Shown here: positions 1,681 to 41,117 of the stretch, in pieces
Numbering within the stretch: the stretch's first letter is position 1
Layout: each line of letters opens with the position of its first letter
Assembly (NCBI RefSeq): GCF_008932245.1
Contig: NZ_CP034911.1
Location: forward strand, 62,001-126,000
Direction: 5' to 3'
Source: Sinorhizobium alkalisoli
GTDB lineage: Bacteria; Pseudomonadota; Alphaproteobacteria; Rhizobiales; Rhizobiaceae
DNA length: 64,000 bases
Notes under the pieces: model-generated
What the model saw: only the letters and a program-made list of their open reading frames with translations
Databases searched by the model: none
Told to the model about the DNA's origin: nothing
Program-made: the position numbers and the translations under genes

Positions 1681-2212
1681 TCGGACGCTCGTGGAGATAG
1701 CAGCGATGGCGGGCCGCTGATGGCTATGTGCCGTGTCCATTGTCATGTGCGGTGAGCGAAATGGCTCGACCGAAACGGCAACGCGCACCACGGGCGGCCC
1801 CGGCCGGCGCAGACTCAAGCGGAGCAGCTACCGCCTGAACATTGCAAGTGCTTTAGCGAGCGCCGCACCGAAGTCTGCAGCCATGTCAGAAACGTTAGGA
1901 GGAGACGCATCGGGCCTCCATCTATGTTTCTTCGACGTATTCGCCGGAAAGTTCGGCAGCTTCCCGGCCTGGCTGTGCGTGGCGGTCACTCCGATCGATC
2001 TCGTGGTGAAACTCGCGCCGCAGGCAGTGCAACTTCCAGAGCGTCCTCTGGCCTAAACCCGCTCAGGCGGGATGGGATGGGATATTGGCGATGAGATTTA
2101 CGTGTGCATCTGAGCGATTGCACATGTCAGCCAAACCCTGGCCAACGAGCGCTGAACGACACCAGCCCGCAAAATGATAGGCACGGCATTTTCGCCGTTT
2201 CGGAGATGGAAT
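1681..2212. other. intergenic region before the giant effector
   Basis: About 530 bases with no supported gene; a frame at 1733-2056 has no recognisable features. I looked for a tts box for the downstream effector. The closest match, GTCAGCCAAACCCTGGCC near 2135, is too weak to call. The ribosome binding site GGAG at 2202-2205 belongs to the next gene. Confidence 0.4.
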
Positions 2213-16036: not shown

Positions 16037-16098
16037 TGTTTGAAGCGTGACTCACGTAGTCTCGATTGCACCATTTGGTGACGCGATGTGGAACTGAA

Positions 16099-17043: not shown

Positions 17044-17159
17044 GTGCTTTCCGGTTCGCAGGCCATAGGAGAACTCCAATGCTCAAGCTGCCCCACCTGC
17101 CCTGTTGCACTCGGTATCATCCGGAGATGCAGGAATAAATTGTTGTCCCGTTACGGCGG

Positions 17160-17573
17160 GTGCTCCTGCTCCAGCAGATCGGCCACCAGCTTAATCAAGG
17201 GCGAGACGATAGCGGCACAGGACTCAGCGTGAACGACGAAGGTCTCCGAAGCAGGTGGTGTCGCGCGCTTATCGCCAAGGAAGGCGCGATTTCCTGTACT
17301 CCCTCTCCTACGTCTGCCTCGCATGTGGAAAGAGCGCAGGAAACTGCCCCGGTTGCGGCACCTACATCCGATCATTTTCGGGATGTTCAACTGCTGCGAC
17401 TTCTCGCCTATGCGCTCGTATCGGCCGATGTTGGCGGTAGGAGCCTGACGGGCCGGGACACGCTGTATACACCCGGGGGGCCACCGCTTTCGCAGTCTCT
17501 TAGTCTCAAGCGTCGCCATGCGCTGGTGGACCTTCGAAAGCTGCGTAAAAGCCGAGCAATTCTCAAACGATAA
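17160..17573 (+). CDS. hypothetical protein between rhcD-like gene and rhcV
   Basis: A 137-codon frame, rich in Arg, Leu and Ser, without a recognisable domain. It ends 13 bases before the chosen rhcV start. No clear ribosome binding site is visible, and a second frame (17255-17440) contains CLACGKSAGNCPGCG, so the region may be a frameshifted small gene. It lies where a T3SS accessory or chaperone gene could sit, but nothing in the sequence shows that. Confidence 0.25.
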   Translation: MLLLQQIGHQLNQGRDDSGTGLSVNDEGLRSRWCRALIAKEGAISCTPSPTSASHVERAQETAPVAAPTSDHFRDVQLLRLLAYALVSADVGGRSLTGRDTLYTPGGPPLSQSLSLKRRHALVDLRKLRKSRAILKR

Positions 17574-17586
17574 CAAAGGGGCCTCC

Positions 17587-19704
17587 ATGGGCAATATCAT
17601 TCGTAACCTCATCGAGCGCGCGCCGGCCAGCCCGGACTTAATGGTTGCGCTCATGCTGCTTGTGGCAGTGGCTATGATGGTGATGCCAGTACCGACCGCA
17701 GTGATCGACACACTGATTGGCTTCAACATGGGTTTGGCCATACTGCTGCTAATGGTTGCTTTGTATATCAGCACACCACTTGAATTCTCTTCTTTGCCAG
17801 GCGTCATCTTGATTTCCACGGTCTTTCGTCTGGCGCTCACCATCGCAACGACGCGACTGATCCTGGCCGAAGGCGAGGCGGGCAGCATCATCCACACGTT
17901 CGGCGATTTCGTGATCTCAGGCAATATCGTCGTAGGTATCGTCATATTCCTAGTCGTGACCATGGTGCAGTTCATGGTCCTCGCGAAGGGCGCTGAACGC
18001 GTAGCAGAAGTGGCCGCCCGCTTCACGCTCGACGCCCTGCCGGGCAAGCAAATGGCGGTCGACGCAGAGTTAAGGAACGGCGATATAGATGCCAGCGAAT
18101 CTCGCAGGCGGCGCGGCGCATTGGAGAAGGAAAGCCAACTTTACGGCGCTATGGACGGCGCGATGAAGTTCGTGAAGGGTGACGCGATCGCCGGGCTCGT
18201 CGTTATTTTCATCAACATGCTGGGTGGGATTTCGATCGGTTTGCTTTCGAAAGGTATGCCCTTCGGCGAGGTGCTGCGACATTATACCCTTCTCACCATC
18301 GGTGATGCCCTAATCTCGCAGATCCCGGCCCTGCTGCTCTCAATTACCGCGGCGACCATCGTCACTCGTGTAACTGGGGCTGGGAGCCTCAACCTTGGGA
18401 CCGACATAGTTAATCAACTCACGGCGAGCAGGCGAGCATTACGGTTGGCGGCTTCCGTCTTGGTTGCGATGGGGTTCGTTCCTGGCTTCCCTCTACCCGT
18501 CTTTTTTATCTTGGCCGCGGTATTCGCCGCGGCAAGCATTGTCAAGGGTGATGTGCTGGGCGCCGGCGGTGTCGATGCTACACCTGCAGCTCCAGTGGAG
18601 CCTCAAAACCAAACGATGCCTGCGGAGGCATGTCCAATCGCTCTCTTCCTTGCGCCGAACGTCATGCAAGCGATCGGCCAAGTCGAACTAAAACAGCACA
18701 TTGCACGCGTGTCGCAATTGGTCTCAGCCGATCTTGGCATCATTGTTCCCCGCATCCCTGTTGCGGTCGATCAGCAGCTGCCCGAGTCGAAATTCAGGAT
18801 AGATATCGAGGGCGTGCCGGTAGAACAGGATCTGATTGATTCGACACAGCTAATGCTTAAAGACGATCGGGCGAACATTCAGTCGAGCGGCATCCCCTTT
18901 CGCCAAGATTCTGAAAAGGACATAATCTGGGTCGAACAATGCCATGCACAGGCTCTTAAGGCCGCCAGCATCCGACATTACCGCCCCAGCGAACTCCTCG
19001 CCTTGCGTGTGCAAGGGGCGTTAACCCGCTATGCACCGCGCTTGGTCGGCATTCAGGAGACCAGCCAATTATTGGGGCGGATGGAGCAGGAATATGCTGA
19101 TCTGGTAAAGGAGGTGCTGCGCACGACACCGATTCCTCGGATTGCCGACGTACTGCGCCGTCTGCTGGATGAAGGTATCCCGATCCGCAACACCCGCGTT
19201 GTCTTGGAGGCATTGGCCGAACGGAGCGAACGTGAGCAAAATGTCGCCCTTCTCACCGAGTACGTTCGTTCTGATATGAAGCGGCAGATCTGTCACCGCT
19301 ATGCCAATGAACACGGAATCGTGCCCGCGTTCATCATCGAACGTGAGACTGAGGATGTGGTGCGCAGCGCGGTTCGGGAATCGGCTGCGGGGCCCTACCT
19401 CGCACTAGAGGATCGGCAAAGTGAAGCACTACTGTCACAGATGCGTCAGATCCTTTCCAGCACAGCGCCTGATCAGACCCGGCCTGTCGTATTAACTGCA
19501 ACGGATATCCGACGCTTCGTCCGCGGCTTTCTCGCGCGAAACGAGATTGATCTTGCTGTGCTGTCTTACCAGGACCTCGCGCCCGACTTCACCATCCAGC
19601 CCGCCGGATCCGTTAAGCTCCGCCTGGAACCAACAGTGGACCGTCAGGGGCTCGCGATTTCCGCATTGCCGCAAGTTGATAGCCAAGACCTCGATGATAG
19701 GTGA
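17587..19704 (+). CDS. rhcV: T3SS export gate protein RhcV (SctV, FHIPEP family)
   Basis: About 705 residues from the ATG at 17587; a longer frame opens at 17518 but only adds unrelated residues. SctV proteins form the nonameric export gate in the inner membrane. The N-terminal third has about eight membrane segments, and the family signature RVAEVAARFTLDALPGKQM is present. The cytoplasmic C-terminal half ends in domains that bind chaperone-effector complexes. No frameshift is seen. It corresponds to y4yR of S. fredii NGR234. Confidence 0.92.
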   Translation: MGNIIRNLIERAPASPDLMVALMLLVAVAMMVMPVPTAVIDTLIGFNMGLAILLLMVALYISTPLEFSSLPGVILISTVFRLALTIATTRLILAEGEAGSIIHTFGDFVISGNIVVGIVIFLVVTMVQFMVLAKGAERVAEVAARFTLDALPGKQMAVDAELRNGDIDASESRRRRGALEKESQLYGAMDGAMKFVKGDAIAGLVVIFINMLGGISIGLLSKGMPFGEVLRHYTLLTIGDALISQIPALLLSITAATIVTRVTGAGSLNLGTDIVNQLTASRRALRLAASVLVAMGFVPGFPLPVFFILAAVFAAASIVKGDVLGAGGVDATPAAPVEPQNQTMPAEACPIALFLAPNVMQAIGQVELKQHIARVSQLVSADLGIIVPRIPVAVDQQLPESKFRIDIEGVPVEQDLIDSTQLMLKDDRANIQSSGIPFRQDSEKDIIWVEQCHAQALKAASIRHYRPSELLALRVQGALTRYAPRLVGIQETSQLLGRMEQEYADLVKEVLRTTPIPRIADVLRRLLDEGIPIRNTRVVLEALAERSEREQNVALLTEYVRSDMKRQICHRYANEHGIVPAFIIERETEDVVRSAVRESAAGPYLALEDRQSEALLSQMRQILSSTAPDQTRPVVLTATDIRRFVRGFLARNEIDLAVLSYQDLAPDFTIQPAGSVKLRLEPTVDRQGLAISALPQVDSQDLDDR

Positions 19705-19713
19705 GAACCGAAG

Positions 19714-20253
19714 ATGACTTCGCATAAGAATACAGTCGCTGCACCATCAGTTTCATTTCGATTGAACTCAGTCCTCTTCGCTGTACTCGCCATCCTGCCT
19801 CTCGGCGGTTGCGCCAGCTGGAATAAGCCAGCTCTTTCGGTGAAGGAGACGTCGCCCCCAGCGTTGCTCGGCGCCAATCATATCGACCCGGCAATGCGCG
19901 AACGCATATTGAGCGCAGTTGGTCAGGATTCTGAAGAGCGAGCGTTACACAATCTGAAGCAGCATCCGGATAATGTTGATGCGGCAATCAGTTTTACCAA
20001 GATATTGCTGGCGCAGAAACGAGAACATGAGGCGCTTCAGGTACTCGACGGAGTGCTTGCTACGGATCCAAGTAATCTGCGTGTATTGAACGCGAAAGGA
20101 GTTGCCTTGGATCTTCAGGGCCGGCATGACGCCGCACAAGTGCTATATCGGCAAGCTCTCAAAGCAGAGCCAGACAATCAGATGTTGCAACACAATCTGA
20201 ACCTGTCACTGGATACAGACGGGAAGTCCGATCCACGTGCGTTGGCACCGTAG
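19714..20253 (+). CDS. TPR lipoprotein of the T3SS locus (y4yS type)
   Basis: A 179-residue protein with a signal sequence ending in the lipobox LGGC (Cys at about residue 33), so it is probably anchored in the outer membrane. The rest holds TPR-like helices (ALQVLDGVLATDPSNLRVLN and AQVLYRQALKAEPDN). This resembles TadD-type pilus-assembly lipoproteins. It starts nine bases after rhcV, so the two are cotranscribed. In S. fredii-type clusters y4yS has this position. Confidence 0.75.
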   Translation: MTSHKNTVAAPSVSFRLNSVLFAVLAILPLGGCASWNKPALSVKETSPPALLGANHIDPAMRERILSAVGQDSEERALHNLKQHPDNVDAAISFTKILLAQKREHEALQVLDGVLATDPSNLRVLNAKGVALDLQGRHDAAQVLYRQALKAEPDNQMLQHNLNLSLDTDGKSDPRALAP

Positions 20254-20310
20254 CATAACTGTGCGCAGCACGGCCTCGATGCGCATGTCGAAAGCGGTTG
20301 AAACGGGCCC

Positions 20311-20657
20311 TTATTTATCAGATAGAAACCCAATAGCCCTTTGCCAAAACGGCCTGCCTAAACTGCCTTCCTTGTCGAGCAGCCAGCGTTTGCCGGTGCT
20401 CCGTTGGGCAACCGGATGGCGCGGGTACTTAACGTGACAGGCGGTGAAGGCGGCGCCATACAGCGTTGTCAGCTGACGGGCATGCACCGGCCCGCGCGCG
20501 GTAGGATGTGCACCCACATCGGACACGGCAGTGCACCGTTACGCAGCGCCTTTGGCTGCAGCCGAATCTCGAACAGATCGCCCGGCTCGCCTTTCAACGC
20601 GTGCGGGGGATCCGCAGGCACCATTTCCTTCGCGTCCCGCAAGTATTCAAGGCGCTT
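20311..20657 (-). pseudogene. decayed coding sequence downstream of the SKWP remnant
   Basis: Directly after the stop at 20658 the same minus-strand frame stays open (DAKEMVPADPPHALKG, LFEIRLQPKALRNGALP) to a stop at about 20480. A second frame then continues with LTTLYGAAFTACHVKYPRHP to 20311. Together they look like one protein with an in-frame stop and a frameshift. I do not recognise the family; it could be the tail of a deleted second effector. Confidence 0.4.
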
Positions 20658-21501
20658 CTAAGGCGGGAAGGCGTAAATCTTCATGCGCTCCATCGCAGTT
20701 GTGGCCTTCGCCTGGCTCACAGTCTTGACCAGTCCCCGCGCCTCCGACTCACTCGCATGCGCCTCGCTCGCGCTCACGAGCTTCTTCGTGCCGAGTCCTG
20801 AGCGCACGAGGACCTTGGCTGCTGGCGCCAAGTCGCTGATGCTCGTGGCGACTTGCGCTTCTGCCCGCCTCGAGGCCAAACTCCCGATGGCAGCGGCCGG
20901 CTTGCTCTTGCCTTTCCCTTTCCTGCGGCGCGCGGCAGTGCTGCCGACAACAGCCTTGCCAGCAGTTTCTGCCGGTCTCGCAGTGCCGCCGTCGGCCGGC
21001 CGTGGAGCGATGGCTGGCAACTTCGGCTGCAGTTCTAGGAGGTTGACGACCTCGTCCGCAGTGATCCACGCACTGTCCACGACCTGGCCCAACAGTTCTA
21101 ATGGGAAGTCGGCAGCTGTTCGGTGGTCGCTTAGCTTTGCGAGCAGACCGTGCGACGCCGACGCAAACTCCGATAGCCTCTCCAAGACCCCTTCCAAAAA
21201 CGGCGCAGTGCTCTGCTCGAGCTGCCGCCCCCTTGCTCAACATTACAGCTTCGGCCGTCGAGATGAATGCCGGGAAAACGTCGTCTATGGAGCTTGCCAG
21301 CGGACGAACATGCCCGTTCTGACCCAGGAGGATTTCCCTGACGGGTGCTTCGAACCCGTTCGCCTGCGAGCTAGTCTTGACTTGCTCGGGAGCGATCTGC
21401 GATTGCAGCTGCATGATCTTGGTATCGACTAGCCAGCCGGTGTGCAACCGTAGCGTGGCCTGATGGAGTACAATGCGGAGCCGGGCAAACTTGCTTCGCA
21501 C
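20658..21501 (-). pseudogene. remnant of a second SKWP-type effector (N-terminal part)
   Basis: Two minus-strand frames together parallel the N-terminal region of the giant effector at 2213. RLHTGWLVDTKIMQLQSQI matches RLHTGSTLMSRFMVLQSRI; APVREILLGQNGHV matches APLREMLIGENGRV; and LAKLSDHRTAADFPLELLGQ matches LGRLSDDRTGADLPLELLGQ. A basic linker (ARRRKGKGKSK) also corresponds. A frameshift near 21200 and a stop at 20658 break the gene, and no SKWP repeats remain. It lies between y4yS and ttsI, in opposite orientation to both. Confidence 0.85.
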
Positions 21502-21990
21502 GATGACGCGCGTGCGGCCCAGTTTACTCAGAGCATTGGCGAGAGAATTCTCGCTTTATTGGTGAGCCCGCCGCGACGTCGCCGGTGCCTTAACTTGCGG
21601 CCGGAGGCTTGGCGAATCTTGTTTTGCCGTCGACAATCCCGGAGCTGCGCGAGCGCCTAACCTGCGCAAATATGGTCATCGCGTTTGCTGACGTCGAATA
21701 GTCGGACTTGATTGCTGATACAGCACTAGGCCAAGCCACGCGCCAAGTGCCGGTCCTTAGGCAACAATGCCGTCGCCGTTAGGGCGAATGCCTTTCATCT
21801 TGCCGGCGACGGTACGGCGCGCTGTTGCGGACGATTTTTCTCATCCGGCCTGCAATTAGCCTATTCCGTTCGGTCGGTTTCGACCAGCAGCCGCATCCCG
21901 TCGGGATCGATCCCGTTGACCAGAAGGCTGGCGTTCAGCCCCGAGCAGCGTGTGGACAGCAGCTCACGCTGGGATAGAGCCCGCGGCATG
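21502..21990. other. non-coding region between effector remnant and nod box
   Basis: No supported gene. It separates the decayed effector from the nod box. Short open frames have no recognisable domains. Confidence 0.4.
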
Positions 21991-22038
21991 CATCCACCCC
22001 CTAAATGTAACCGATTGGAAAAATGGATTTTTCCAATC
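21991..22038 (+). promoter_or_regulatory. nod box upstream of ttsI
   Basis: The sequence starts CATCCACCCCC and ends GGATTTTTCCAATC. This aligns with the nod-box consensus (YATCCA...ATC-AAACAATCGATTTTACCAATC), with about 17 of the last 21 positions matching. It is the binding site for NodD, the flavonoid-responsive LysR regulator. It lies about 310 bases before ttsI in the right orientation, as in S. fredii, where a nod box drives ttsI. Confidence 0.8.
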
Positions 22039-22346
22039 CGCTTCTCGAAGATAACTCTTTCAGCCATCCGAACCGTGGGCTCCTGGGCGATGCCGGAGCT
22101 CATAAACCTAGGGCCGCACTCAGGAGAATCGATGCGAGAAAAAATCATCAGCGAGGTTGGTGGTGTTTTTGGTCCGCCGACCTACGGTTCTGGTCCAATA
22201 GTCTTCACATGCTGCTGTCCGCGAGTATTTTCGGCGTTTGCATGCTCGTCCCAAAAAGGCAACGCGTTGCGTGAATTCTGCTGTCACCTTAGCTCCATAG
22301 CCGGCGGTGACCTGCTCCGATTCTTCTAGCTTGAGTATGAGGTGAA

Positions 22347-23033
22347 ATGCGAACGCTGCTCGTTGATCACCATGCGGATGTTGCACGCGCGGTACTTGCT
22401 GCGCTCGCGGATAGCGGGTTTGCCGTTGATGTAGCTTGCACTCTCGAGGAGGCATCGTATGCATTTCATTGCGCGAGCTATGAAATTCTCCTGCTGGAGT
22501 TGGTTCTGCCTGATGGCGACGGCTTGGGCTGGCTGAAGCAACTAAGAAGCGAGGGGCACTCAGTTCCCGCCGTCGTTATGAGCTGCTTCGACGACCGCGA
22601 GAAGCGAATTGCCTCTTTCAATGGTGGCGCGGACGATTTCCTGCGCAAGCCCGTCTCTCCTGTTGAGCTCATCGCTAGAATGAGAGCCATTCAGCGCAGA
22701 GCGATACAGTTGACTGATCCCATCCTTGTATTCGGCAATCTCAACTTCGACCCAATCAGCCGAGAGCTTTCCGTTGCAGGTGATCGGCTAACGATCGCAC
22801 GCCGCGAGCTATGTATTCTTGAGCATCTACTTAAGCGTGCCGGCCGCATCGTGCCGCGTGCGCAGTTGGAAGGTCACCTCTATTCCTTCAACGACGAGGT
22901 GTCTACCAACGCACTTGAAGTCGGGATTTATCGCTTACGTGGACATCTGAGTAGGTCAGGCGCGACGCCACAGATAAAGACCGTGCGCGGCATTGGCTAC
23001 ATTCTTGAATTGCCTGGCGCGGTATCAGCATGA
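22347..23033 (+). CDS. ttsI: T3SS transcriptional activator TtsI
   Basis: A 228-residue OmpR-type protein: a receiver domain (about 1-115) and a C-terminal winged helix (about 130-225) with REL...EHLL and TVRGIGYIL. It activates tts-box promoters after NodD induction. The usual phospho-acceptor aspartate is replaced by glutamate (LLLELVLPDGDG, E51), while the lysine in FLRKP is kept. A Glu here is known for TtsI and suggests activity without phosphorylation. The next gene starts directly at its stop codon. Confidence 0.92.
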   Translation: MRTLLVDHHADVARAVLAALADSGFAVDVACTLEEASYAFHCASYEILLLELVLPDGDGLGWLKQLRSEGHSVPAVVMSCFDDREKRIASFNGGADDFLRKPVSPVELIARMRAIQRRAIQLTDPILVFGNLNFDPISRELSVAGDRLTIARRELCILEHLLKRAGRIVPRAQLEGHLYSFNDEVSTNALEVGIYRLRGHLSRSGATPQIKTVRGIGYILELPGAVSA

Positions 23034-24518
23034 TTGATCGATTATGAAAGAAAGACTGCCTTGAATATCGTCTCAATTCGTCATCCTGCCGCCCATCGGC
23101 CTCCGGCTCTCATCGACGGACCAAGGGCCACTAGTTGTCTTTACTTGGGCCCTCTCATCTGCGCGCTCATCCTGTTATCTCCACTTTCTACCGCGGCCCA
23201 AAGCAGCGGGGATGAAGGGGCGCCGCGTGCCACTTCCAATAGTATCAATGCCACGCTGAACCTCTCCTCTTCGCTCGGCCAGACAGTCCGTCTCCCCGCG
23301 CCAGCCGCGACCATCTTTGTTGCCGACCCGACGATTGCGGACTACCAGGCCCCCTCGAGCGAAACCATCTTCGTCTTTGGCAAGAAACCCGGGCGAACCA
23401 CCCTGTTCGCCTTGAACGACAAGGGCGTGGCTCTCGCCCAGGTGCAGATCGTCGTTACGGATCCAATCGGCGACCTCCGAGCCATGTTGAGGGATCAGGT
23501 CGGAGACTATCCAATCCGCGTCAAGTATACCCCGCGCGGCGCGATTCTTAGTGGTACAGCGCCCGATGCCGAAGCCGTCGACACTGCGAAAAGAATCACC
23601 GAGCAATTTCTCGGTGACGGTGCGCAGGTCGTCAATAAGATCAGGGTCGCAGGGTCGTTGCAGGTGAATCTCAGTGTGCAGGTAGCGGAGGTCTCCCGCG
23701 GCGCGATGAAGGAACTTGGTGTTAACCTGTCGGCCCTCGGGCAAATCGGAAGTTTCAAGGTGGGCATGTTAAGCGGCGGCGGCAGAGGCGGCGGCTCTGG
23801 TGCCGCTAGTGGTGGCGGTACAGCAAAAATTGGATACAATGATGGTAATATCAACATCGGCGGGGTTCTCGACGCGCTCGCCAAGGAGCACGTCGCTTCC
23901 ATCTTGGCGGAGCCGAATCTCACTGCGATGTCCGGCGAAACCGCCAGCTTCCTCGCTGGCGGCGAATTCCCCATTCCTGTCCCGCAGGAAAATGGGCAAG
24001 TCTCAATTGAATTTCGTCGCTTCGGCGTCAGCCTGGAATTCCTACCCACCGTTCTCAGCAACAACCAGATCAATATTCGCGTAAAGCCGGAAGTCAGTGA
24101 ACTCACGTCACAAGGTGCCGTTCAAATCAACGGAATTTCCGTGCCCGCAATTTCTACCCGCCGAGCCGATACAGTCGTCGAACTCGCCAGTGGGCAGAGC
24201 TTCGCAATTGGTGGGCTCATCAGGCGTACCGTAACCAATGATATCAGTGCCTTTCCCGGACTCGGTCAGGTGCCGATCCTTGGCGCCCTATTCCGTTCGT
24301 CGTCATTTCAAAAAGAGGAGTCGGAATTGGTTATTCTGGTTACTCCTTACATCGTAAGACCAGGGTCGAACCCGGAGCAGATGAGCGCGCCCACGATGGC
24401 GTCGCCCTTGGATCGGGGGGACCCTGGATCGAATTCGCTACGTCTGCCACGCAGCCGCGCTATTGGCCGCACCGGCATGCCAAGCGCCAAGAGCAGAGTC
24501 GGCTTTATCATCGAATGA
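23034..24518 (+). CDS. rhcC2: T3SS secretin RhcC2-like (y4xJ type; CpaC/RcpA-like)
   Basis: Up to 494 residues. No ATG is available early; a TTG at 23034, adjacent to the ttsI stop, or a TTG at 23061 is the likely start. A signal peptide is visible (LICALILLSPLSTAAQ). It is followed by a pilus-type beta domain (LSSSLGQTVRLPAPAATIFV), a BON-like domain (about 150-205) and the secretin core (about 240-450), including VASILAEPNLTAMSG, AGGEFPIPV and the Gly-rich loop GGGRGGGSG. Secretins form the outer-membrane channel. The domain layout is closer to CpaC of Tad pili than to classical SctC, as described for rhizobial rhcC2. Confidence 0.8.
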   Translation: MIDYERKTALNIVSIRHPAAHRPPALIDGPRATSCLYLGPLICALILLSPLSTAAQSSGDEGAPRATSNSINATLNLSSSLGQTVRLPAPAATIFVADPTIADYQAPSSETIFVFGKKPGRTTLFALNDKGVALAQVQIVVTDPIGDLRAMLRDQVGDYPIRVKYTPRGAILSGTAPDAEAVDTAKRITEQFLGDGAQVVNKIRVAGSLQVNLSVQVAEVSRGAMKELGVNLSALGQIGSFKVGMLSGGGRGGGSGAASGGGTAKIGYNDGNINIGGVLDALAKEHVASILAEPNLTAMSGETASFLAGGEFPIPVPQENGQVSIEFRRFGVSLEFLPTVLSNNQINIRVKPEVSELTSQGAVQINGISVPAISTRRADTVVELASGQSFAIGGLIRRTVTNDISAFPGLGQVPILGALFRSSSFQKEESELVILVTPYIVRPGSNPEQMSAPTMASPLDRGDPGSNSLRLPRSRAIGRTGMPSAKSRVGFIIE

Positions 24519-27365: not shown

Positions 27366-28604
27366 CTAAGTAGCCTCAGTGAATTCCCGATACAGCTCGA
27401 TTGTGGGCAGATGTGCATCGATAGTCTCGCGCACCTTCGCGGCCATCGGCAGGTTGTTTTTCTCGTTTTTCCACACATCCGTGAATCGTCCGACCGTCTC
27501 GCGTGCGGTGTCGAGGACCAGCTTTTCGGACAGCGCCGCCTTGGCGGCCAGATGTACAAGCTCGTCCTTCGATAGCTCCGCCATTCTTTTCGTGCGCGAA
27601 AAATTAAGCGCGGCCGTATCCTCTCCCTCGATATAGGGGATGGTCGATAGCAGGTCGTAAGCCGGCGAGAGCGCAGGAGTGCGGCGATCGGGATAGATCA
27701 GAGACCAGTTCTTCAGATGCATGTCGCCATTGCCGATCAGTGTGCTGAAGACCAACCGGCGGATGAACTCCGCCACGTCGGCCGTGCTCGTCTCGATGCC
27801 GAGGACGCGGGCGATCATCCGGTAATTGCCCTTGCTGTACTTGTCATCCGGCTTCACGCCGAACACTTGCGCAAAATCCTCGATATGCACCGGACCCTCC
27901 GGCATACGGTCGAAACGTCTAATCGCGAGTGCCTGTCCGTGCAGTTCGCCCACGCCCTGTGGCAGGCCGCTCACCGCATCCAGCTCGACCAGTTGGATCT
28001 CCGGTATGTCCATTCCCATCATGCCGGCGATGGTCATCATGGAGAATTCGTTTTCTGGCACGCCGCTATACTGCTGGGAGGGCAGCTTTACGATCCATGA
28101 TCCACCTGTACCCTCGGCCGGAATAGTCAGCCCGCCTCCCTTCGTGGTATTCTTGAAGGCCGAGAATTTCAGCTGTACACCAGCCAGCGAGAATCGCAAC
28201 GCATTCGGTCGCGCTTCGACAGAAGCCTGCTCGTAATCTGGCGGCAGGTCATCACCCGCGGAGGGATGGACCGTCACTGCACCGGGCAGGTCGCGGCCGA
28301 GCATCCAGAGCAGGAAGAATTCCCGCGTCTGTTTTACGCTGGCACGCTCGGCGAGGTATTTTCGCAGCGGCCCTTCCGGCAACAGGTTCGAGAAGAAGGG
28401 TGGGACCACCATGTTGTATGGGCGGAATTTCGTAATCAGGGCGCCGAACGGATCCTTGAAGGACAAGCTGAGTGTCGGCCGCTTGTCGTTTTCGATATAG
28501 TCCTCATTGAATGCGAAGACGGTGCGCCCGTCCTGCAGGTTCGTCAGGGTCGCGACCGGTTCGGCGTACAGCCTGACATCGAGTACCGTCACCTTAGGCA
28601 TCAT
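27366..28604 (-). CDS. hipA: HipA-family serine/threonine kinase toxin
   Basis: A 412-residue protein from the ATG at 28604 (28601 is an alternative). Its start overlaps the end of hipB. HipA toxins phosphorylate an aminoacyl-tRNA synthetase (GltX in E. coli), which stops growth and promotes persistence. The N-terminal HipA_N domain covers roughly 1-110. The kinase core contains GNGDMHLKNWSLIY (catalytic Asp/Asn loop) and SPAYDLLST (metal-binding Asp). Length is normal and the gene is intact, unlike most of its neighbours. Translation coupled to hipB is expected. Confidence 0.88.
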   Translation of the reverse strand: MMPKVTVLDVRLYAEPVATLTNLQDGRTVFAFNEDYIENDKRPTLSLSFKDPFGALITKFRPYNMVVPPFFSNLLPEGPLRKYLAERASVKQTREFFLLWMLGRDLPGAVTVHPSAGDDLPPDYEQASVEARPNALRFSLAGVQLKFSAFKNTTKGGGLTIPAEGTGGSWIVKLPSQQYSGVPENEFSMMTIAGMMGMDIPEIQLVELDAVSGLPQGVGELHGQALAIRRFDRMPEGPVHIEDFAQVFGVKPDDKYSKGNYRMIARVLGIETSTADVAEFIRRLVFSTLIGNGDMHLKNWSLIYPDRRTPALSPAYDLLSTIPYIEGEDTAALNFSRTKRMAELSKDELVHLAAKAALSEKLVLDTARETVGRFTDVWKNEKNNLPMAAKVRETIDAHLPTIELYREFTEAT

Positions 28605-29190
28605 CGTCCTCCTCATCCAGCGCATAGGCCGAGCGCGGGATTGCGTCATCTCTGTCGCGATGAACCGCTGCGTTGCGCAGCTGCCTTATCTCGCGGGCGA
28701 TCGCACTCATTTCCTGACGTGACATCTTGTCGGCCTGAGAATTTTCAAGGCGGTCGGCTGCCTGCCTGAGGATGTCCAGCTCGTCGGGCGTCAGAGGCAG
28801 ATGCCGTAGGAGGCCCAGACTATCCTTGAATGCGTCCGCGTCGACACTCGCCCCGACGCCATGCCCGTATTGCGCCGACCATCGCTCGAGACGCGCGACC
28901 AGTTTGCGTTGGTCGGATGTGAGGACATCATTCGAGGCCGAGCTGCTATCGAGGATGTTGCGGATCGCCGGCATCAGCTTCTTCGGCGCAAGGATGATCT
29001 CGAGGTCGAGCGCGCGTGCCACATCCACCAAGCTGCCGAGCCCAGGCTCCATTGTACCCCGCTCGATCTGGGAAATATGGCTCTGCGTCAGGCCCGAACG
29101 TGCGCTCAGCTCACGCTGGCTAATCTTCTGTCCTTCCCTAGCAGCGCGTAACTGCTGCGTTATATGCGCTGTTTTATATGCCACGATCAT
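28594..29190 (-). CDS. hipB: HipB-like antitoxin, XRE-family repressor
   Basis: 198 residues from the ATG at 29190. The N-terminal XRE helix-turn-helix (ISQRELSARSGLTQSHISQIE) is followed by a long helical C-terminal part, making it longer than E. coli HipB (88 aa). It should neutralise HipA and repress the operon through the palindrome immediately upstream. It ends in an acidic tail (DEEDDDA) that overlaps the hipA start. Confidence 0.85.
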   Translation of the reverse strand: MIVAYKTAHITQQLRAAREGQKISQRELSARSGLTQSHISQIERGTMEPGLGSLVDVARALDLEIILAPKKLMPAIRNILDSSSASNDVLTSDQRKLVARLERWSAQYGHGVGASVDADAFKDSLGLLRHLPLTPDELDILRQAADRLENSQADKMSRQEMSAIAREIRQLRNAAVHRDRDDAIPRSAYALDEEDDDA

Positions 29191-34183: not shown

Positions 34184-34738
34184 CTAGGTTTCAGTAGCGC
34201 CATCCAGCCGGATCACATCGAGGGCGGGTCCGTCCAAGTTGAAATACTGTTTGCAGTTCGGATCGCACGTGTCGCATTCGAAGACGAGGCGATATGGATA
34301 GAGACCGGGCACCAAATCGGACAGAATCGAGCCCGCCCAATAATAGTAGGACGGCGTCCACCGACTCCGGATCTTGTCTGGGCCGCCATAGACCTTGAGA
34401 TCGTTACATATTTTGCGGTGCTGCGGCGTGCCGTCGGGCTGCAAAAAAACAATGTTCACAATCCGCGCGAGGGGAGGCCAGCCCCCATCGGGGTTCTTTT
34501 CCATGTCGCTGCAATAAACTAACCAGTTCAGAACTTGGCCTTGGCGGCAGACCGTGCGCAGGGCGTTCGTACCCTTGCCGGTGCTGTCACCGCCATTGTC
34601 CATCAATGCGGCTTTGCCGGTGACGCTGCCGGTCCGCAGGGTGCTTGAGACGTCGACTATGGCGACGATGTTCAGCTGCGTCGAAGCCAAGGAAGGGCTA
34701 CTAGGGGGGTTTTGGGAAACCATCGTGGCTTGCATCAT
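34184..34738 (-). CDS. small paralogue D of the decarboxylase operon (AidA/PixA-like?)
   Basis: 184 residues, starting in a 4-bp overlap with the previous gene. The start LNIVAIVDVSSTLRTGSV parallels the other three small proteins of this operon (V...VDV...L). Later come VLNWLVYCSD and YYYWAGSILSD, matching their W and YW motifs. Near the end it has a unique Cys-rich stretch (ECDTCDPNC) that could bind metal. No signal peptide is seen. The pattern is loosely like the AidA/PixA inclusion-body family, but I am not certain. Last gene of the operon. Confidence 0.6.
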   Translation of the reverse strand: MMQATMVSQNPPSSPSLASTQLNIVAIVDVSSTLRTGSVTGKAALMDNGGDSTGKGTNALRTVCRQGQVLNWLVYCSDMEKNPDGGWPPLARIVNIVFLQPDGTPQHRKICNDLKVYGGPDKIRSRWTPSYYYWAGSILSDLVPGLYPYRLVFECDTCDPNCKQYFNLDGPALDVIRLDGATET

Positions 34739-35181
34739 GAACTCCCGGTTTGGGTTGGGCCAGGCGGCATTTGGAGAGTGGCTTCAATGAGGCGTGGGTT
34801 GGCACCATTGTCGACCGTGTGCGTCCGGCTGCCGAGTTCCAATGTCAAGCCATAGGGCAGGTTGCCGACTGGCTGTTTCACCAGACCGACCCAGTAGCTG
34901 ACATCGGAGTCGCGATAAGTATTGCGCTCGACCTTGCAGGTTTCAGCCGGCAGTTCGATTGCCCGCACCGCAGCATGCGTCTCGCATTCGATGGGCAGCA
35001 ACGTCCAGATAATCCGGTCTCCCGATGTGACCGCCGTTGCGAGCTCGGCCGTTGCCTCGTTGCGCGAGCCGCCGAGACGGTTGTCATCGATCATGTAGAG
35101 ATAACCCGCGAGCGTATCGGCCTCCAGTGCTCCGCAGACGTCCACCACCATTCGGACATTGATCGTTTTTGGAATCGTCAT
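34735..35181 (-). CDS. small paralogue C of the decarboxylase operon (AidA/PixA-like?)
   Basis: 148 residues from the ATG at 35181, overlapping the previous gene's stop. Motifs are NVRMVVDVCGALEADTLAG, IIWTLLPIECETHA and VSYWVGLVKQPVGNLPYGL. This set (VDV, W...P...ET, YW.G) is the best match I see in the group to the AidA/PixA inclusion-body family. Those proteins are made in large amounts by some symbiotic and pathogenic bacteria and have no known enzymatic activity. It is soluble and lacks a signal peptide. Confidence 0.62.
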   Translation of the reverse strand: MTIPKTINVRMVVDVCGALEADTLAGYLYMIDDNRLGGSRNEATAELATAVTSGDRIIWTLLPIECETHAAVRAIELPAETCKVERNTYRDSDVSYWVGLVKQPVGNLPYGLTLELGSRTHTVDNGANPRLIEATLQMPPGPTQTGSS

Positions 35182-35903
35182 ATGGCGTCTCCCGCAACAA
35201 CGGTGGAGCAAGGGGTGACCGGCAGCAGCCCGGGCGCGAAGCTGCCGGTGAATCCGTTGACGCCCGGAGCGGAGGTAATCTGAATGCCGCACGTCAGAGT
35301 AAAGAGCTGCGGCTCCCACACCGTCTCGCCGTTCCCTTGAATGGGGCGGTAGAGCGCCACCTCCATCGTGTAGTCGTGGCGGCCGACCTTGGCGGTATCG
35401 ACAGTCGCGCTCCAGTACCAGCCGTCCGTCAGTAGATCGGGCGAACCGTATAGAGCGGGATACAGCACACCCTGCTCCACTGCCGGCCCAGCGATGCGGG
35501 TGAGGACCGGGGGCAGGCTGGCCGCCGCGTCGGGATTGTCAGGCTTCAGCACCTCGCAGGCCGCGCTCAGCAGGGCGGCGTCATAATATCGGACCTTGTC
35601 GTGCTGGCGGACTCGCGGGCGGATGTCGGCTTTCCGATCGTTCCACGGCTTCGAGATGAAGCGGTGACGATAGCTGCGGGGCAGCGTCGTTGGTAGTCCG
35701 CCGATGCCGACCGGGATCCAGTTAAGGACGGCCTCCGTCGCCTGCGATCCGTCGGCATTGTGGACGCCGGGAACGTTGGTGATGCGGAGGCCCGCCGGCG
35801 AGGCGAGTGGGCCCGTATTATCAATGACATAGGCATTCCCGTCGAGAGTGCCCTCCTTCAGGGCCGTCACGATGTCGATGACGGCGACAATGGAGATCTG
35901 CAT
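35178..35903 (-). CDS. small paralogue B of the decarboxylase operon, with insertion
   Basis: 241 residues from the ATG at 35903, which has AGGAGGG four bases upstream; a start at 35921 would lack this. It keeps the group's motifs: ISIVAVIDIVTALKEGTLDG, VLNWIPVGIG, and GWYWSATVDTAKVGRHDYTM. It has an extra insert of about 90 residues in the middle (about 85-165) that the paralogues lack. The stop overlaps the next start. Soluble, function unknown. Confidence 0.6.
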   Translation of the reverse strand: MQISIVAVIDIVTALKEGTLDGNAYVIDNTGPLASPAGLRITNVPGVHNADGSQATEAVLNWIPVGIGGLPTTLPRSYRHRFISKPWNDRKADIRPRVRQHDKVRYYDAALLSAACEVLKPDNPDAAASLPPVLTRIAGPAVEQGVLYPALYGSPDLLTDGWYWSATVDTAKVGRHDYTMEVALYRPIQGNGETVWEPQLFTLTCGIQITSAPGVNGFTGSFAPGLLPVTPCSTVVAGDAI

Positions 35904-35941
35904 CGTACCCTCCTGTTGCAACGATTTGTGCGGCTACCCGG

Positions 35942-36388
35942 TCAGGCGGCGGCGTGGATCGAAACGGAATCCGCCGTCGTACCAGCGGAGGCATTAACCA
36001 CAAGGGACGGTCCCGCGATGCTGATGGCCCGCCCGGTCAGGCCGCCTGTGACCAGCGTCAACCTGTAGGAATGGCGCGTGCCCGGAGCTAGCCACCAAGG
36101 GGCGTATCCCTGCCAGTGCAGGGCCCACGGGGGGGCGTTGGTCTCTGCCGGCATTGCGAGCCCGTCGAACGAGAGTCCGGACAACCAAACTGGGGTCTGG
36201 ACATCGAGCGGTGTCACGCTCCAGCGAACCAGCTGCCTTGGCCAGACGGGACTGGCCAGCTTAGCGGTGCCGGAATCCTCGCCGCCGCAAAAGCTATCGT
36301 CGAACAGGAAGGCATTGTCGTCGGCCGGATTGCCCAGCAGCAGGGCGACGACATCTACAAAAACTTGGATATTGAGTGGTGACATCAT
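35942..36388 (-). CDS. small paralogue A of the decarboxylase operon
   Basis: 148 residues. LNIQVFVDVVALLLGNPADD, LVRWSVTPLDVQTPVWL and LHWQGYAPWWLAPGTRHSYR correspond in order to the motifs of the other three small proteins, but this is the most divergent copy. It is rich in Trp and Pro in the second half. It starts 40 bases after the adenylating enzyme gene. No signal peptide, no known function. Confidence 0.6.
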   Translation of the reverse strand: MMSPLNIQVFVDVVALLLGNPADDNAFLFDDSFCGGEDSGTAKLASPVWPRQLVRWSVTPLDVQTPVWLSGLSFDGLAMPAETNAPPWALHWQGYAPWWLAPGTRHSYRLTLVTGGLTGRAISIAGPSLVVNASAGTTADSVSIHAAA

Positions 36389-36427
36389 CTTCCCTTCTAC
36401 CGCCGCTGGCGGTCCTGATTGCAGAAG

Positions 36428-37960
36428 TCAAACACGGTCGACAACCAAGGGCACCTTGCCGATTTCCGTGCGGACCAGGTCCGCCCCATTTGGATCGACG
36501 AGCCGAATCGCAAAGTTGTAGCCGGAACTCAGTAGGCTCGCCTCGTTCGCTTCCAGCGCATTGAAGACTGACAGGGACCGAACGAATCCGGCGATCATTA
36601 CGGACGAGGAGCCTTCCGGCCCCAGACGGGCGGCGACCTGCGCCGACAGGGATGCCGCGTCCGGCGTCCCGATCACCATATGCAACTGCCGTTTCGTGCG
36701 GTCGATCTGGAATTGGGTGTCCGTGGCGACCCTGTCGATCTCCAGAACCTGCCGTTGCCGGAATTCGGCGATGATGGCCGCTAGGGCTTGGGGCGCCGAA
36801 TATTGAGTGTCGCCGATATGGATGAAATCGCCGCTGCGGCCCGCGTATTCGAACTGCATTGCGTTAAGGCCGGGCGACCGAAGGTCCGGACGGCGGACGA
36901 CCCGGTCACCCACCTTGTAGCGCAGCACCGGGGTCGCATTACCGAACAGACGCGTGACGACCAGCTCGCCTTCCTCGCCTTCCTCCACCCATTGCCCGTC
37001 GGGCCTGACCACTTCCACCAGGTGCAGCCCTGGAACCGCGGTCACGACGGGGCTTTCAGGGTCGAGCTGCAGTCCTATGGTTTCCGCCTGGACGGCGGCG
37101 AAATAGCTGAGAACGGTCAAGTTGGGATAGGCTTCTCTCAGGTCCGCCCTCACTTTGGGGGTTAGCACGCCGCTGCCGTAAAGGGCGACGCGGAAGCTGT
37201 CCCGCGCCTCGCGGGACAGCCCGTCGGCAAATTTCGCCAGCAGCGCGATACTCCCGGAAATGCCCATGATCGCCTTTGGTCCCGGGTAGGACATCATCAG
37301 CTGGAAAACTTCCAAGCTCATCGGGCCCGCGCCGATATAGTTGACGCCGGGGATCCTCTGGAGCACGCCGCCCACCATGGTGCCGCTGCTCCACATCTGA
37401 TAATCGGCGAGCGTTGTGGCCACCCATTTGGCGCCGTCGCCGGTGAGGTAACGCGCCATCACGTGCCGGCCCATGAAATCCCCCGCCCAACCGTAGGTCT
37501 CCTGCAACTCGTCGAGCGCGTAGACGGTCTCCGACGACTTCCCGGAACTGGTGCCGCCACTGGCCACAATCTGAAAGCCGCAACGCTCGATGGGAACGAC
37601 CATGCCGGGCCGCGTCTGCGAGAACATCTGCTGGCAGACTTCCTTATCGGTTAGCGGCAGCCCCTGGAACCGCTTTAGACTGTTTACGGGACCGGTGCCA
37701 ACGGCCCCGTCAATGCGCTGGCGCCAGAGCGGGTTGACGCGGGCGATGGAGATGAGCTGCGATAGCCTGCGCTCGATAATGGCGGCCTGGGTTTCTAGGG
37801 ACATTTCATCGACCCGGCAGCCGAGATGGGCCTGCGCGTGCTGGAGGGCGGACAGGAAAGAGGGCAGGACCAAAACATCATCCACGGTGCGCGGATGCAT
37901 CATCGTCTCCGGCAGCACCGAGTTGGCGAAGTCGTGCGAAGAGGGGGCAAAGTTCAGCAT
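36428..37960 (-). CDS. PaaK/CapK-like adenylate-forming enzyme
   Basis: 510 residues from the ATG at 37960, with GGGGAG five bases upstream; a GTG at 37966 is the alternative. The ATP-binding loop IVASGGTSSGKSSETVY fits the phenylacetate-CoA ligase/CapK branch of the ANL superfamily. Further motifs are GSGVLTPKVRADLREAYP, EEGEEGELVVTRLF and YKVGDRVVRR (the hinge/Asp region). Such enzymes activate a carboxylic acid as acyl-AMP for transfer to CoA, an amine or a carrier. The gene starts at the decarboxylase stop, so the two are translationally coupled and probably act on the same substrate route. The actual substrate is unknown. Confidence 0.75.
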   Translation of the reverse strand: MLNFAPSSHDFANSVLPETMMHPRTVDDVLVLPSFLSALQHAQAHLGCRVDEMSLETQAAIIERRLSQLISIARVNPLWRQRIDGAVGTGPVNSLKRFQGLPLTDKEVCQQMFSQTRPGMVVPIERCGFQIVASGGTSSGKSSETVYALDELQETYGWAGDFMGRHVMARYLTGDGAKWVATTLADYQMWSSGTMVGGVLQRIPGVNYIGAGPMSLEVFQLMMSYPGPKAIMGISGSIALLAKFADGLSREARDSFRVALYGSGVLTPKVRADLREAYPNLTVLSYFAAVQAETIGLQLDPESPVVTAVPGLHLVEVVRPDGQWVEEGEEGELVVTRLFGNATPVLRYKVGDRVVRRPDLRSPGLNAMQFEYAGRSGDFIHIGDTQYSAPQALAAIIAEFRQRQVLEIDRVATDTQFQIDRTKRQLHMVIGTPDAASLSAQVAARLGPEGSSSVMIAGFVRSLSVFNALEANEASLLSSGYNFAIRLVDPNGADLVRTEIGKVPLVVDRV

Positions 37961-37962
37961 GG

Positions 37963-39543
37963 TCACTCCCCAGGCTGGAGCCGGAAAAGCCGCATTTGCT
38001 CGCTCTCCGTTGCATCGTTTTCAAGGATGTCGCGCGCGTGGCGGCGGATCTCAGCAACCACGCCCTCTATGTCGTGCAGGCCTATCTGATGGTTCATGAG
38101 GACCATGCGAAGCATTGTCCGTCCGTCCAAGTCGACCTTCGACAGAAGGTACTGCCCGGCCGCCCGGACGCGGTCACGCAATTGAATTTGCAGACGGGAC
38201 AGGCGTCTGCTGTCCACTCCGGCCGGGCGATGGACGAAGCATAGGATATTGGACTCCGGTCGGTGCGGCACGAGGAAGTCTGGCTGGCTAGCCAAATAAT
38301 CGTGCGCGGCTCCGGTCATCGTCACTAAATGCTCAAGCTTGTCCGCGAAGGCGTGGCGGCCATAGAGCGACCAGGCCAACCACAGATTGAGGATGGCGGG
38401 TCGCTTGGTGCACTCAAAATTTTTCACGCCGCTCTGCACGGCGGTCATCTCGTCTTCGAACGGGTCGAACACATAACTGTCCTTCTGGGGAAAGGCGGTC
38501 TCCGCCATTCCCTTCTGTTTGTAAAAAAGCAAGGTGCAAAGGGCCGGGACGAACAGAGTCTTATGGGCATCCATGCAGAAGGAATCCGCGAGTTCCAGGC
38601 CCGAAAGTCGCGGTCGCAGCCGGTCGGAAACCAGGAAAGCGCCATTGTGGGCGGCATCGACATGCAGCCAGGCTCCGTGCCGCTTTGCCAAGGCGGCGAG
38701 TTCCGGAAGCGGATCGTTAGCGCCAATCGACGTTGTCCCGGCCGACGCAATGACGCAAAACACATCGAGCCCGCAGAACGCCGCTGAGTCCAATGCCGCC
38801 GCTGCACCCGCCGGGCAGATCTGTCGGCGGTAGTTCAGCGGCAACCGAACCACCTGATCTTGACCGATGCCGATGATCCCGGCCACGCGTGTGACGGAAA
38901 AATGGGCATCCTCGCCAACGGCGATGGCAGGGCGCCTCGAGCCGGCGGCCGCGAGACCGCCGTTCCAGCTTTGGGGAAAACAATGGTTTCGGGCGACCAG
39001 CACGGCGGTCATGTTCGCTAGCGATGCGCCGGACGTTGTCACCATCTCGAAGCGGCCATGGGGCCAGCCGACGAGACGACCTAATGTCTCTTCCAGCAAT
39101 CTGTCTGCGATGTTGGGGAGCTGTCCCGCCTCGTAGTATGAGGCCGGCTGCGGCACCATTGCGGAAACCATGTCGAAGACGGCGGCGACGGGCATCACAG
39201 AGCTGAACTGCCGCGCCATATATCCGCGGGAGTTCACCTTGATAGCGGTTTCCAGGTAAAGGTCGAGGATCTCCGAGAAACGGTGCAGGTCGAAGCGCCC
39301 CCTGTCCGCCGGCACCATCAAGTTTCGGGCGCGAGCCATAAGATCGGCAGGTCTTTGCAGCCGAACACCTTCCAAGCTGTCGCCGGACAGCATGTCTGCG
39401 AGGCGTTTGACTGCCTGATGGGCGGCTGCGGCAAAGTCCCCAACGCTGAAAAACTCTTCTAGGCTCGCGGAGCCAGCCTTGGACGTAGATGCCGAACTGT
39501 CATCGAGTTCGTTGACATCCTTCTGTTCATATAGCTTCACCAT
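37963..39543 (-). CDS. PLP-dependent group II decarboxylase
   Basis: 526 residues from the ATG at 39543 (39567 is a longer alternative). It belongs to the glutamate/aromatic-amino-acid decarboxylase family: TTSGASLANMTAVLVARN, ASAGTTSIGANDPL, WLHVDAAHNGAF (PLP-binding Asp) and SFCMDAHKTLFVPALCTLL (PLP Lys). The N-terminal 40 residues are an unconserved extension. These enzymes decarboxylate amino acids such as tyrosine, DOPA, aspartate, diaminobutyrate or glutamate; I cannot choose among them. First gene of a compact six-gene operon with an adenylating enzyme and four small paralogues. Confidence 0.85.
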   Translation of the reverse strand: MVKLYEQKDVNELDDSSASTSKAGSASLEEFFSVGDFAAAAHQAVKRLADMLSGDSLEGVRLQRPADLMARARNLMVPADRGRFDLHRFSEILDLYLETAIKVNSRGYMARQFSSVMPVAAVFDMVSAMVPQPASYYEAGQLPNIADRLLEETLGRLVGWPHGRFEMVTTSGASLANMTAVLVARNHCFPQSWNGGLAAAGSRRPAIAVGEDAHFSVTRVAGIIGIGQDQVVRLPLNYRRQICPAGAAAALDSAAFCGLDVFCVIASAGTTSIGANDPLPELAALAKRHGAWLHVDAAHNGAFLVSDRLRPRLSGLELADSFCMDAHKTLFVPALCTLLFYKQKGMAETAFPQKDSYVFDPFEDEMTAVQSGVKNFECTKRPAILNLWLAWSLYGRHAFADKLEHLVTMTGAAHDYLASQPDFLVPHRPESNILCFVHRPAGVDSRRLSRLQIQLRDRVRAAGQYLLSKVDLDGRTMLRMVLMNHQIGLHDIEGVVAEIRRHARDILENDATESEQMRLFRLQPGE

Positions 39544-39567
39544 GGGGAAGATCCTTTCTGGCGTCAT

Positions 39568-40673: not shown

Positions 40674-41117
40674 TTAGTTGGTCAGGGTGCCGTCACTGTT
40701 ATCAATGCCGTTAATCGGGATCGACGAGGCGTGAAAGGCGCCGGCGGTATCGCGGCAGCTTGCGTTCAATGTGACGCCACTGATGGATGGGACAAGTTCG
40801 ATGCTGCCGCAGGATTCCTGGAACGTCGCGCTGTCGCCCTCCAGCTTCAGAGCGCCGTCTACGTTGGCGATGGCGGGCATGGCAATACTGGTTCCGTTCG
40901 GCGAACCATCGGCACGAAGGCAAGTTGCGGAAATTTCGGCTCCACCGTTGTCGGTGTACTGGAAACTGATGTTGGAACAGGTGTTCTGGAAGGTGCTGCT
41001 ACCGGCGATCGCGGCGGTTGCGGTCAGGGTGAAAAGCGCTGATGCGATGGCGATTTTCAGATTAACGCCCAAGCCAAGGCTGGTGCTCTGTCGCCACTGG
41101 ATAAAATTCTGAGACAT
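40674..41117 (-). CDS. secreted cyanovirin-N homology (CVNH) lectin-like protein
   Basis: 147 residues with a signal peptide (about 1-39, LTATAAIA before GSS). The mature part of about 105 residues has two tandem CVNH half-repeats. The first has FQNTCSNISF, ATCLRADG and NVDGALKLEG; the second has FQESCGSIEL, NASCRDTAG and NSDGTLTN. The four Cys residues fit the usual two disulfides. CVNH proteins bind high-mannose glycans; a secreted one in a plant-associated bacterium may bind plant, fungal or bacterial surface sugars. The gene stands alone, with an AT-rich upstream region and a hairpin downstream, surrounded by IS debris. Confidence 0.8.
   Translation of the reverse strand: MSQNFIQWRQSTSLGLGVNLKIAIASALFTLTATAAIAGSSTFQNTCSNISFQYTDNGGAEISATCLRADGSPNGTSIAMPAIANVDGALKLEGDSATFQESCGSIELVPSISGVTLNASCRDTAGAFHASSIPINGIDNSDGTLTN

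Follow-up and report, generated by a model that had tools for sequence, protein, structure and literature searches.

The stretch of DNA analyzed here, called the window in the following, covers 64,000 nucleotides of the Sinorhizobium alkalisoli contig NZ_CP034911.1, and it contains at positions 39543-34184 six minus-strand reading frames that follow one another in the order DEC, PAAK, S1, S2, S3, and S4. The first two encode a decarboxylase and an adenylate-forming enzyme, and the other four encode small proteins of a single fold superfamily; an optional seventh gene, CYSH, lies behind them. The seven genes are the following:

39543-37963, minus strand: DEC, group II decarboxylase dependent on pyridoxal 5'-phosphate (PLP), 526 amino acids
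37966-36428, minus strand: PAAK, divergent PaaK-like adenylate-forming enzyme, 512 amino acids, GTG start
36388-35942, minus strand: S1, PixA/MakCD-superfamily protein, 148 amino acids
35903-35178, minus strand: S2, PixA/MakCD-superfamily protein, 241 amino acids, bearing a large insert and an NGFTG conserved at the C terminus
35181-34735, minus strand: S3, PixA/MakCD-superfamily protein, 148 amino acids
34738-34184, minus strand: S4, PixA/MakCD-superfamily protein, 184 amino acids
33982-33422, minus strand: CYSH, isochorismatase-like cysteine hydrolase of the amidohydrolase type, 186 amino acids, optional seventh gene

The six genes are tightly packed, as a preliminary description of this DNA had stated, with 4-base overlaps at the DEC/PAAK, S2/S3, and S3/S4 junctions and gaps of 39 bases between PAAK and S1 and of 38 bases between S1 and S2. 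That description was right about these six and stopped one gene short, missing CYSH, which begins 201 bases past S4. The DEC frame opens also at an ATG at 39567, and only the ATG at 39543 has an AGGA, located eight bases upstream. The contig of the operon carries nifH (E 1.9e-135) and is therefore taken to be a symbiosis replicon. Among 33 genomes of the genus, PAAK was found (E<=1e-60) in the source genome alone, so that the operon in Sinorhizobium alkalisoli is considered accessory and probably acquired.

Conservation of the gene set and its order

The operon was followed across bacteria through PAAK, the 80 loci compared being the best 80 of 94 PAAK relatives that were retrieved with two PAAK peptide patterns and a PAAK alignment at one genome per species; more distant PAAK relatives fall outside this count. 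DEC, PAAK, S1, S2, S3, and S4 stand in this order at 74 of the 80 loci, and at 77 of 83 if L001-L003 are included, which come from a plasmid collection, where the similarity of their DNA to that of the operon revealed them, and are excluded from the former count. The same similarity at the DNA level places the operon together with CYSH on Bradyrhizobium plasmids. The preliminary description had named a gene-neighborhood search as its check, and the genes are indeed co-conserved elsewhere, by which a chance packing of unrelated genes is rejected.

The 77 complete loci are distributed over Actinomycetota (43), Pseudomonadota (11), Cyanobacteriota (10), Bacteroidota (7), Acidobacteriota (1), and Chloroflexota (1), and four have no phylum label, namely L001-L003 and L029, which is titled Aminicenantes. 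Chloroflexota and Aminicenantes are represented by short contigs of metagenome-assembled genomes (MAGs) alone, and for the other five phyla there are also records whose titles do not name a MAG. Median intergenic gaps, measured from script-chosen starts, range from 11 to 48 bases. It has to be noted that four loci with split or cut DEC or PAAK frames were counted as complete: L009, with DEC in two pieces; L069, where the PAAK frame is split and DEC truncated at the start of the contig; L027, where DEC is truncated in the same way; and L046. In L026, L058, and L060, the S1-position gene gave its better score with a different S query and is counted as S1 for its place; the S-protein tree described below groups those of L026 and L060 with S1, L058 being outside the tree.

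The S genes are missing from six loci. Two of these, L024 and L059, are cut contigs, and the genome of L059 has four S-type matches on another contig, that of L024 one weak match. The whole genomes of the other four (L015, L022, L052, and L061) gave no match to the S4 profile, which was the only S profile searched there, and all four keep DEC, PAAK, and CYSH, which argues that the enzymes can do without the S proteins.

Presence and absence of PAAK and S4 agree in both genome samples in which they were compared. Within the family of Actinomadura macra (L056), PAAK occurs in 27 of 298 genomes and S4 in the same 27 (Fisher 6e-39), and within the order of the L023 cyanobacterium PAAK occurs in 4 of 195 genomes and S4 in the same 4 (Fisher 2e-8), with no mismatch in either sample, at thresholds of 1e-60 for PAAK and 1e-6 for S4 and with a limited number of first-look candidates scored. 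Since the samples are centered on carriers of the operon and their members are related, these p-values overstate independence.

Family and fold of S1-S4

None of the S1-S4 proteins has a Pfam match at E<=1, PF12306 (PixA) included. The NCBIfam model NF049870 (MakCD) matches S3 (8.2e-16 to 1.8e-15), S4 (1.7e-7), S1 (1.5e-6), and S2 (0.0054), all four staying under its 110-bit cut-off, with S3 the best at 58.2 bits. All 24 members of the S3 alignment match the MakCD model at E<=0.1 and are therefore relatives, and two of the 24 match PF12306 (best E 0.039) below its gathering score. When the profiles of S1, S3, and S4 were compared with solved structures at E<=1, the MakC/MakD entries 8rqy and 6tct alone were returned, with values of 2.6e-11 (8rqy) and 2.2e-10 (MakD, 6tct) for S1 and of 1.1e-19 and 1.3e-16, respectively, for S3. 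The AlphaFold models of S4 and S2, with predicted local distance difference test (pLDDT) scores of 86 and 76, gave concordant results in Foldseek: all 14 PDB matches of S4 at E<=0.001 are MakD, MakC, PixA (4lzk/4pib), or 4q52, and those of S2 are 8rqy, 6tct, and 4lzk. With membership defined by a significant fold or profile match to the MakC, MakD, or PixA structures and a helix between strands 1 and 2, all four proteins belong to the PixA/MakC/MakD superfamily, S2 and S4 by model and S1 and S3 by profile. The four divergent copies of one fold noticed in the preliminary description are thereby given a family, and by these common matches the four genes are paralogous.

Two features bear on how the four proteins may associate. 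The NGFTG of S2 is near-invariant (N216, F218, and T219 in 0.99, 1.00, and 0.95 of 78 sequences), and the tail that carries it is left at low confidence in the single-chain model (64 and 54 for the blocks 211-220 and 221-230), as would be expected of a partner-binding tail. In addition, three chains among the 120 listed of 259 S4 matches (P0137, P0142, and P0198) are S3-S4 fusions in one predicted protein, with a match to the S3 profile (8e-52 to 1e-40) followed by one to the S4 profile (1e-77 to 4e-75).

The enzymes

The assignment of DEC to the group II decarboxylases has been borne out by PF00282 (9.7e-43, 146.8 bits vs a cut-off of 27), and its solved relatives include GAD65/67 and DfoJ. 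With other members of the group, such as the glutamate, diaminobutyrate, and cysteine sulfinate decarboxylases, it has in common the profile, the C-terminal arginine, and the PLP lysine, K336 (numbered from 39567), kept in 82 of 84 DEC sequences with gaps in the other two. It differs from them in missing the scores of the equivalog models, reaching 142.6 bits against a cut-off of 900 for the nearest NCBIfam one, diaminobutyrate decarboxylase, and in the exchange of the N and F of the GAD65 motif NMFTYE, two residues that in glutamate decarboxylase (GAD) we take to contact the substrate. At these positions the DEC family has P141 (82/84, two gaps) and S143 (80/84), so that its substrate may well differ from that of glutamate decarboxylase; the active-site residues of DEC gave no decision on what it is.

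PAAK has no Pfam match at E<=1. It does match the PaaK-type models of NCBIfam, the best at 3.7e-12 and none reaching its cut-off, in agreement with the PaaK/CapK-like enzyme proposed earlier. Against the PaaK phenylacetate-CoA ligase equivalogs it scores 45.6 bits vs 700 and 33 bits vs 646.3, and against the BagE/FevW model 12.5 bits with a cut-off of 800. PAAK thus has the adenylation motifs and the alignment in common with PaaK and BagE/FevW, and it differs from them in lying under all of their cut-offs and in forming a separate, highly conserved family. BagE/FevW-type enzymes couple two substrates directly. PAAK can be aligned to the PaaK structure 4r1l in an alignment that covers most of the motif positions and stops short of K504. 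S136-G-G-T139, E295, D354, and R377 are present in 84 of 84 sequences and K504 in 82, with two gaps, by which PAAK has both the adenylation motifs and the C-terminal lysine of an ANL adenylate-forming enzyme.

CYSH matches PF00857 at 3.6e-38, and its D10, K85, and C118 are kept in 30, 31, and 30 of 31 sequences, two weak matches included. The arrangement of the operon followed by CYSH occurs also in Bradyrhizobium and Ensifer loci, and CYSH (E<1e-15) is present in the retrieved sequence at 24 of the 77 complete loci and at four of the six S-less loci, these being the four whose genomes have no S4-profile match.

History and selection

In a tree of 96 S proteins from the source operon and 23 further loci, each S position forms one side of one branch, with Shimodaira-Hasegawa-like approximate likelihood ratio test (SH-aLRT) supports of 86, 100, 99, and 97 for S1, S2, S3, and S4 on 145 columns only, so that the divergence of the four paralogues most likely preceded the spread of the cassette between phyla. 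For every pair among the six genes, the pairwise distances are correlated, at 0.83-0.95, relatedness being uncontrolled. Selection on the operon, which had been suspected from its intact state, finds support, as purifying selection, in ratios of nonsynonymous to synonymous substitution (dN/dS) of 0.11-0.47 for all seven genes in comparison with three relatives (Ensifer L009 and Bradyrhizobium L006 and L002), the highest being that of S2 vs L009 and the L009 value of DEC being taken from 412 codons of one piece. A decaying remnant is rejected by these ratios, though DEC of L009 is split; the PAAK, S1-S4, and CYSH frames of that locus are whole. The gene set is a real unit, a cassette of six genes that is old and mobile and to which CYSH is an optional addition.

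Variation and neighboring genes

Some loci contain additional enzymes. Pfam identifies a class I/II aminotransferase that separates PAAK from S1 at the loci L029 and L060, and clustering alone adds L053; a GNAT-family protein is found near L051 (by Pfam) and, by clustering, at five further cyanobacterial loci. Two Bacteroidota loci (L083 and L085) have two tandem DEC-PAAK pairs ahead of S1-S4. In L022, DEC is ~4.5 kb away from CYSH-PAAK. In the Commensalibacter loci L052 and L061 a DJ-1/AraC-type regulator adjoins CYSH-DEC-PAAK, and both have proteins of ~420 amino acids (6356-7618 and 6334-7602) that look alike by eye and have no credible Pfam match. Further components common to the loci are rejected, as no neighbor cluster occurs in more than 15 of the 83 loci (3564 open frames, not called genes, were clustered); those at 15 loci look by eye like a response regulator, its adjacent frame, and an ATPase of the ABC type, at distances that vary. 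A shared rhizobial upstream operator is likewise rejected, no common site being seen in the aligned upstream regions of five loci (~330-360 bases, 49% mean column identity). Phage records gave no S4 match and viral contigs no PAAK relative, and phage cargo was rejected on these grounds. When the six operon proteins, without CYSH, were compared with PADLOC models at E<=0.1, DEC alone had a match, a weak one to SspA (0.047); a known anti-phage defense system was rejected as lacking PADLOC support.

Elsewhere in the window, a small protein encoded upstream of the operon (40674-41117, minus strand) has a CVNH (cyanovirin-N homology) domain (E 9.8e-10), and a gene for a HipA-type kinase is located at 27366-28649 on the minus strand (HipA_C 1.9e-48, Couple_hipA 3.6e-22). 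Type III secretion genes at 16066-24518 on the plus strand encode a YscD-like/Y4YQ protein, an FHIPEP export gate, and a secretin. Upstream of them, a plus-strand frame of 3197 amino acids (2174-11767) matches the shikimate-kinase domain PF01202 (3.4e-43) and, C-terminally, the Ulp1-type protease domain PF02902 (9.5e-08), and its product looks like a giant protein of the secreted-effector type.

Relation to known systems

The nearest known relatives of the S proteins are MakC and MakD of the Vibrio cholerae mak operon (8rqy, 6tct; NF049870), which are of the same superfamily and likewise adjacent paralogues in one operon. The mak operon, however, has two paralogues beside pore-forming toxin genes, whereas here four stand beside a decarboxylase and an adenylating enzyme, and no toxin gene of the makA, makB, or makE type of makDCBAE was found in the operon, though no search with toxin profiles was made. 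As given in excerpts of PMC11484084, MakC and MakD are cytosolic and crystallise as dimers, and MakC is cross-linked into large complexes in cells. The PixA/AidA inclusion-body proteins (PF12306; 4lzk, 4pib) are likewise matched by the S2 and S4 models in Foldseek; they differ in that S1-S4 do not match PF12306 and in that the available text of PMC9060813, which describes PixA proteins as inclusion proteins of the stationary phase and AidA and Bnr1 as adjoining in one operon, mentions no DEC-PAAK partner for them. None of the known systems compared corresponds to the operon as a whole. The earlier statement that such a cluster is undescribed stands as well, since no description of a DEC-PAAK-S cluster was found in the open-access literature, to which our claim of novelty is confined, MIBiG and subscription journals being outside its scope.

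Proposed function and alternative models

Enzymes of the kinds that produce amines, activate acids, and hydrolyze amides occur together here, which suggests that an amide is formed and is open to cleavage. In the model that we put forward tentatively, as a distinct possibility held with somewhat less than even confidence, the cassette would be one horizontally mobile unit of two modules, an amide-making enzyme module and a cytosolic hetero-oligomer of S1-S4 that serves the enzymes or their product. DEC would decarboxylate an amino acid to an amine, and PAAK would adenylate a carboxylic acid and join it to this amine, directly or through coenzyme A (CoA), to give the amide, which CYSH, where present, could cleave for turnover or self-protection. 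Amide formation and all of the substrates we infer from the enzyme families. The S1-S4 assembly would contain four PixA/MakCD-fold subunits, with S3 beside S4, and would hold the enzymes together and/or bind or store the product in an inclusion-like manner; such a complex is proposed from the S3-S4 fusions, the S2 tail, the cross-linking of MakC, and the PixA inclusions, and its scaffold or storage role is likewise a proposal. That S1-S4 would serve the enzymes or the product, and would not be the substrate of PAAK, is suggested by the persistence of the enzymes in S-less genomes.

Several points weigh against this model. The hetero-oligomer is a prediction, and DEC scores far below every decarboxylase equivalog. 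The S3-S4 fusions are predicted proteins and possibly errors, and MakD was mostly monomeric in cross-linking, according to excerpts of PMC11484084. The distance correlations could reflect shared phylogeny, CYSH is close to just 24 of 77 complete loci, and the nearest relative, Ensifer sesbaniae L009, has its decarboxylase in two pieces (8503-10007).

A stronger form of the model, which we regard as doubtful, makes S1-S4 the four obligate subunits of a new intracellular PixA-fold heteromeric body that encloses or scaffolds DEC-PAAK, by which an amine-derived amide is made and stored. If this were true, the six genes would have passed between phyla as a cassette for an organelle-like body, widespread and of metabolic or defensive use.

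Bacteria of soil and water face grazing in nature, and the operon may alternatively be an anti-predator weapon, in which S1-S4 would be proteins like AidA or MakCD and a bioactive amide made by the enzymes would act on grazing protists or nematodes. The fold is indeed found also in proteins accessory to the Mak toxin of Vibrio and in AidA, which excerpts of PMC9060813 describe as required for virulence of B. cenocepacia in C. elegans, and the S4 homologue P0163 is named "Nematocidal protein AidA" in UniRef. This name looks automatic, however; MakC and MakD are, according to PMC11484084, not secreted and without toxic effect of their own; and the operon has no toxin-like gene by Pfam and NCBIfam, and neighbor clusters recur at 15 of 83 loci at most. 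We consider an anti-predator role unlikely.

A role in protein modification, with S1-S4 as the substrates on which PAAK or the amine would modify a residue, could explain the tight co-occurrence of S4 and PAAK and the strongly conserved polar residues in each S protein. It is improbable in view of the four genomes that keep DEC, PAAK, and CYSH with no S4-profile match, where the enzymes seem independent of the S proteins; no acceptor residue was found either, though without a systematic search. Quite improbable is that the operon is a natural-product cluster already characterized under a different name, in which the S proteins would be ordinary accessories: 43 of the 77 complete loci are labeled Actinomycetota and some loci have the extra aminotransferase or GNAT in or beside them, but the same six genes recur in the same order in five phyla, judged by record titles other than those of MAGs, with no common set of flanking genes, and the open-access literature holds no such cluster (MIBiG being outside the comparison). 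Very improbable, finally, are regulators or DNA mimics tuning the expression or activity of the enzyme pair, which recall the proposal, in excerpts of PMC9060813, of the PixA-family Bnr1 as a DNA mimic, the label "regulator" of the NCBIfam MakCD model, and the AraC-type regulators close by the S-less loci L015, L022, L052, and L061, but against which stand the lack of any DNA-binding domain in S1-S4 by Pfam and NCBIfam or in the S2 and S4 folds and, in our opinion, the unusualness of four subunits in fixed order for one regulatory role.

The fixed six-gene order across at least five phyla and the matching presence and absence in two taxon samples mark one functional unit, whose genes are largely labeled "hypothetical protein" in annotation. 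Through the cassette, the PixA/AidA/MakCD superfamily, which is poorly understood, is tied to a pair of defined enzymes, a link that makes the role of its proteins addressable by metabolite and pull-down work, and such a cassette is now placed on a rhizobial symbiosis replicon.

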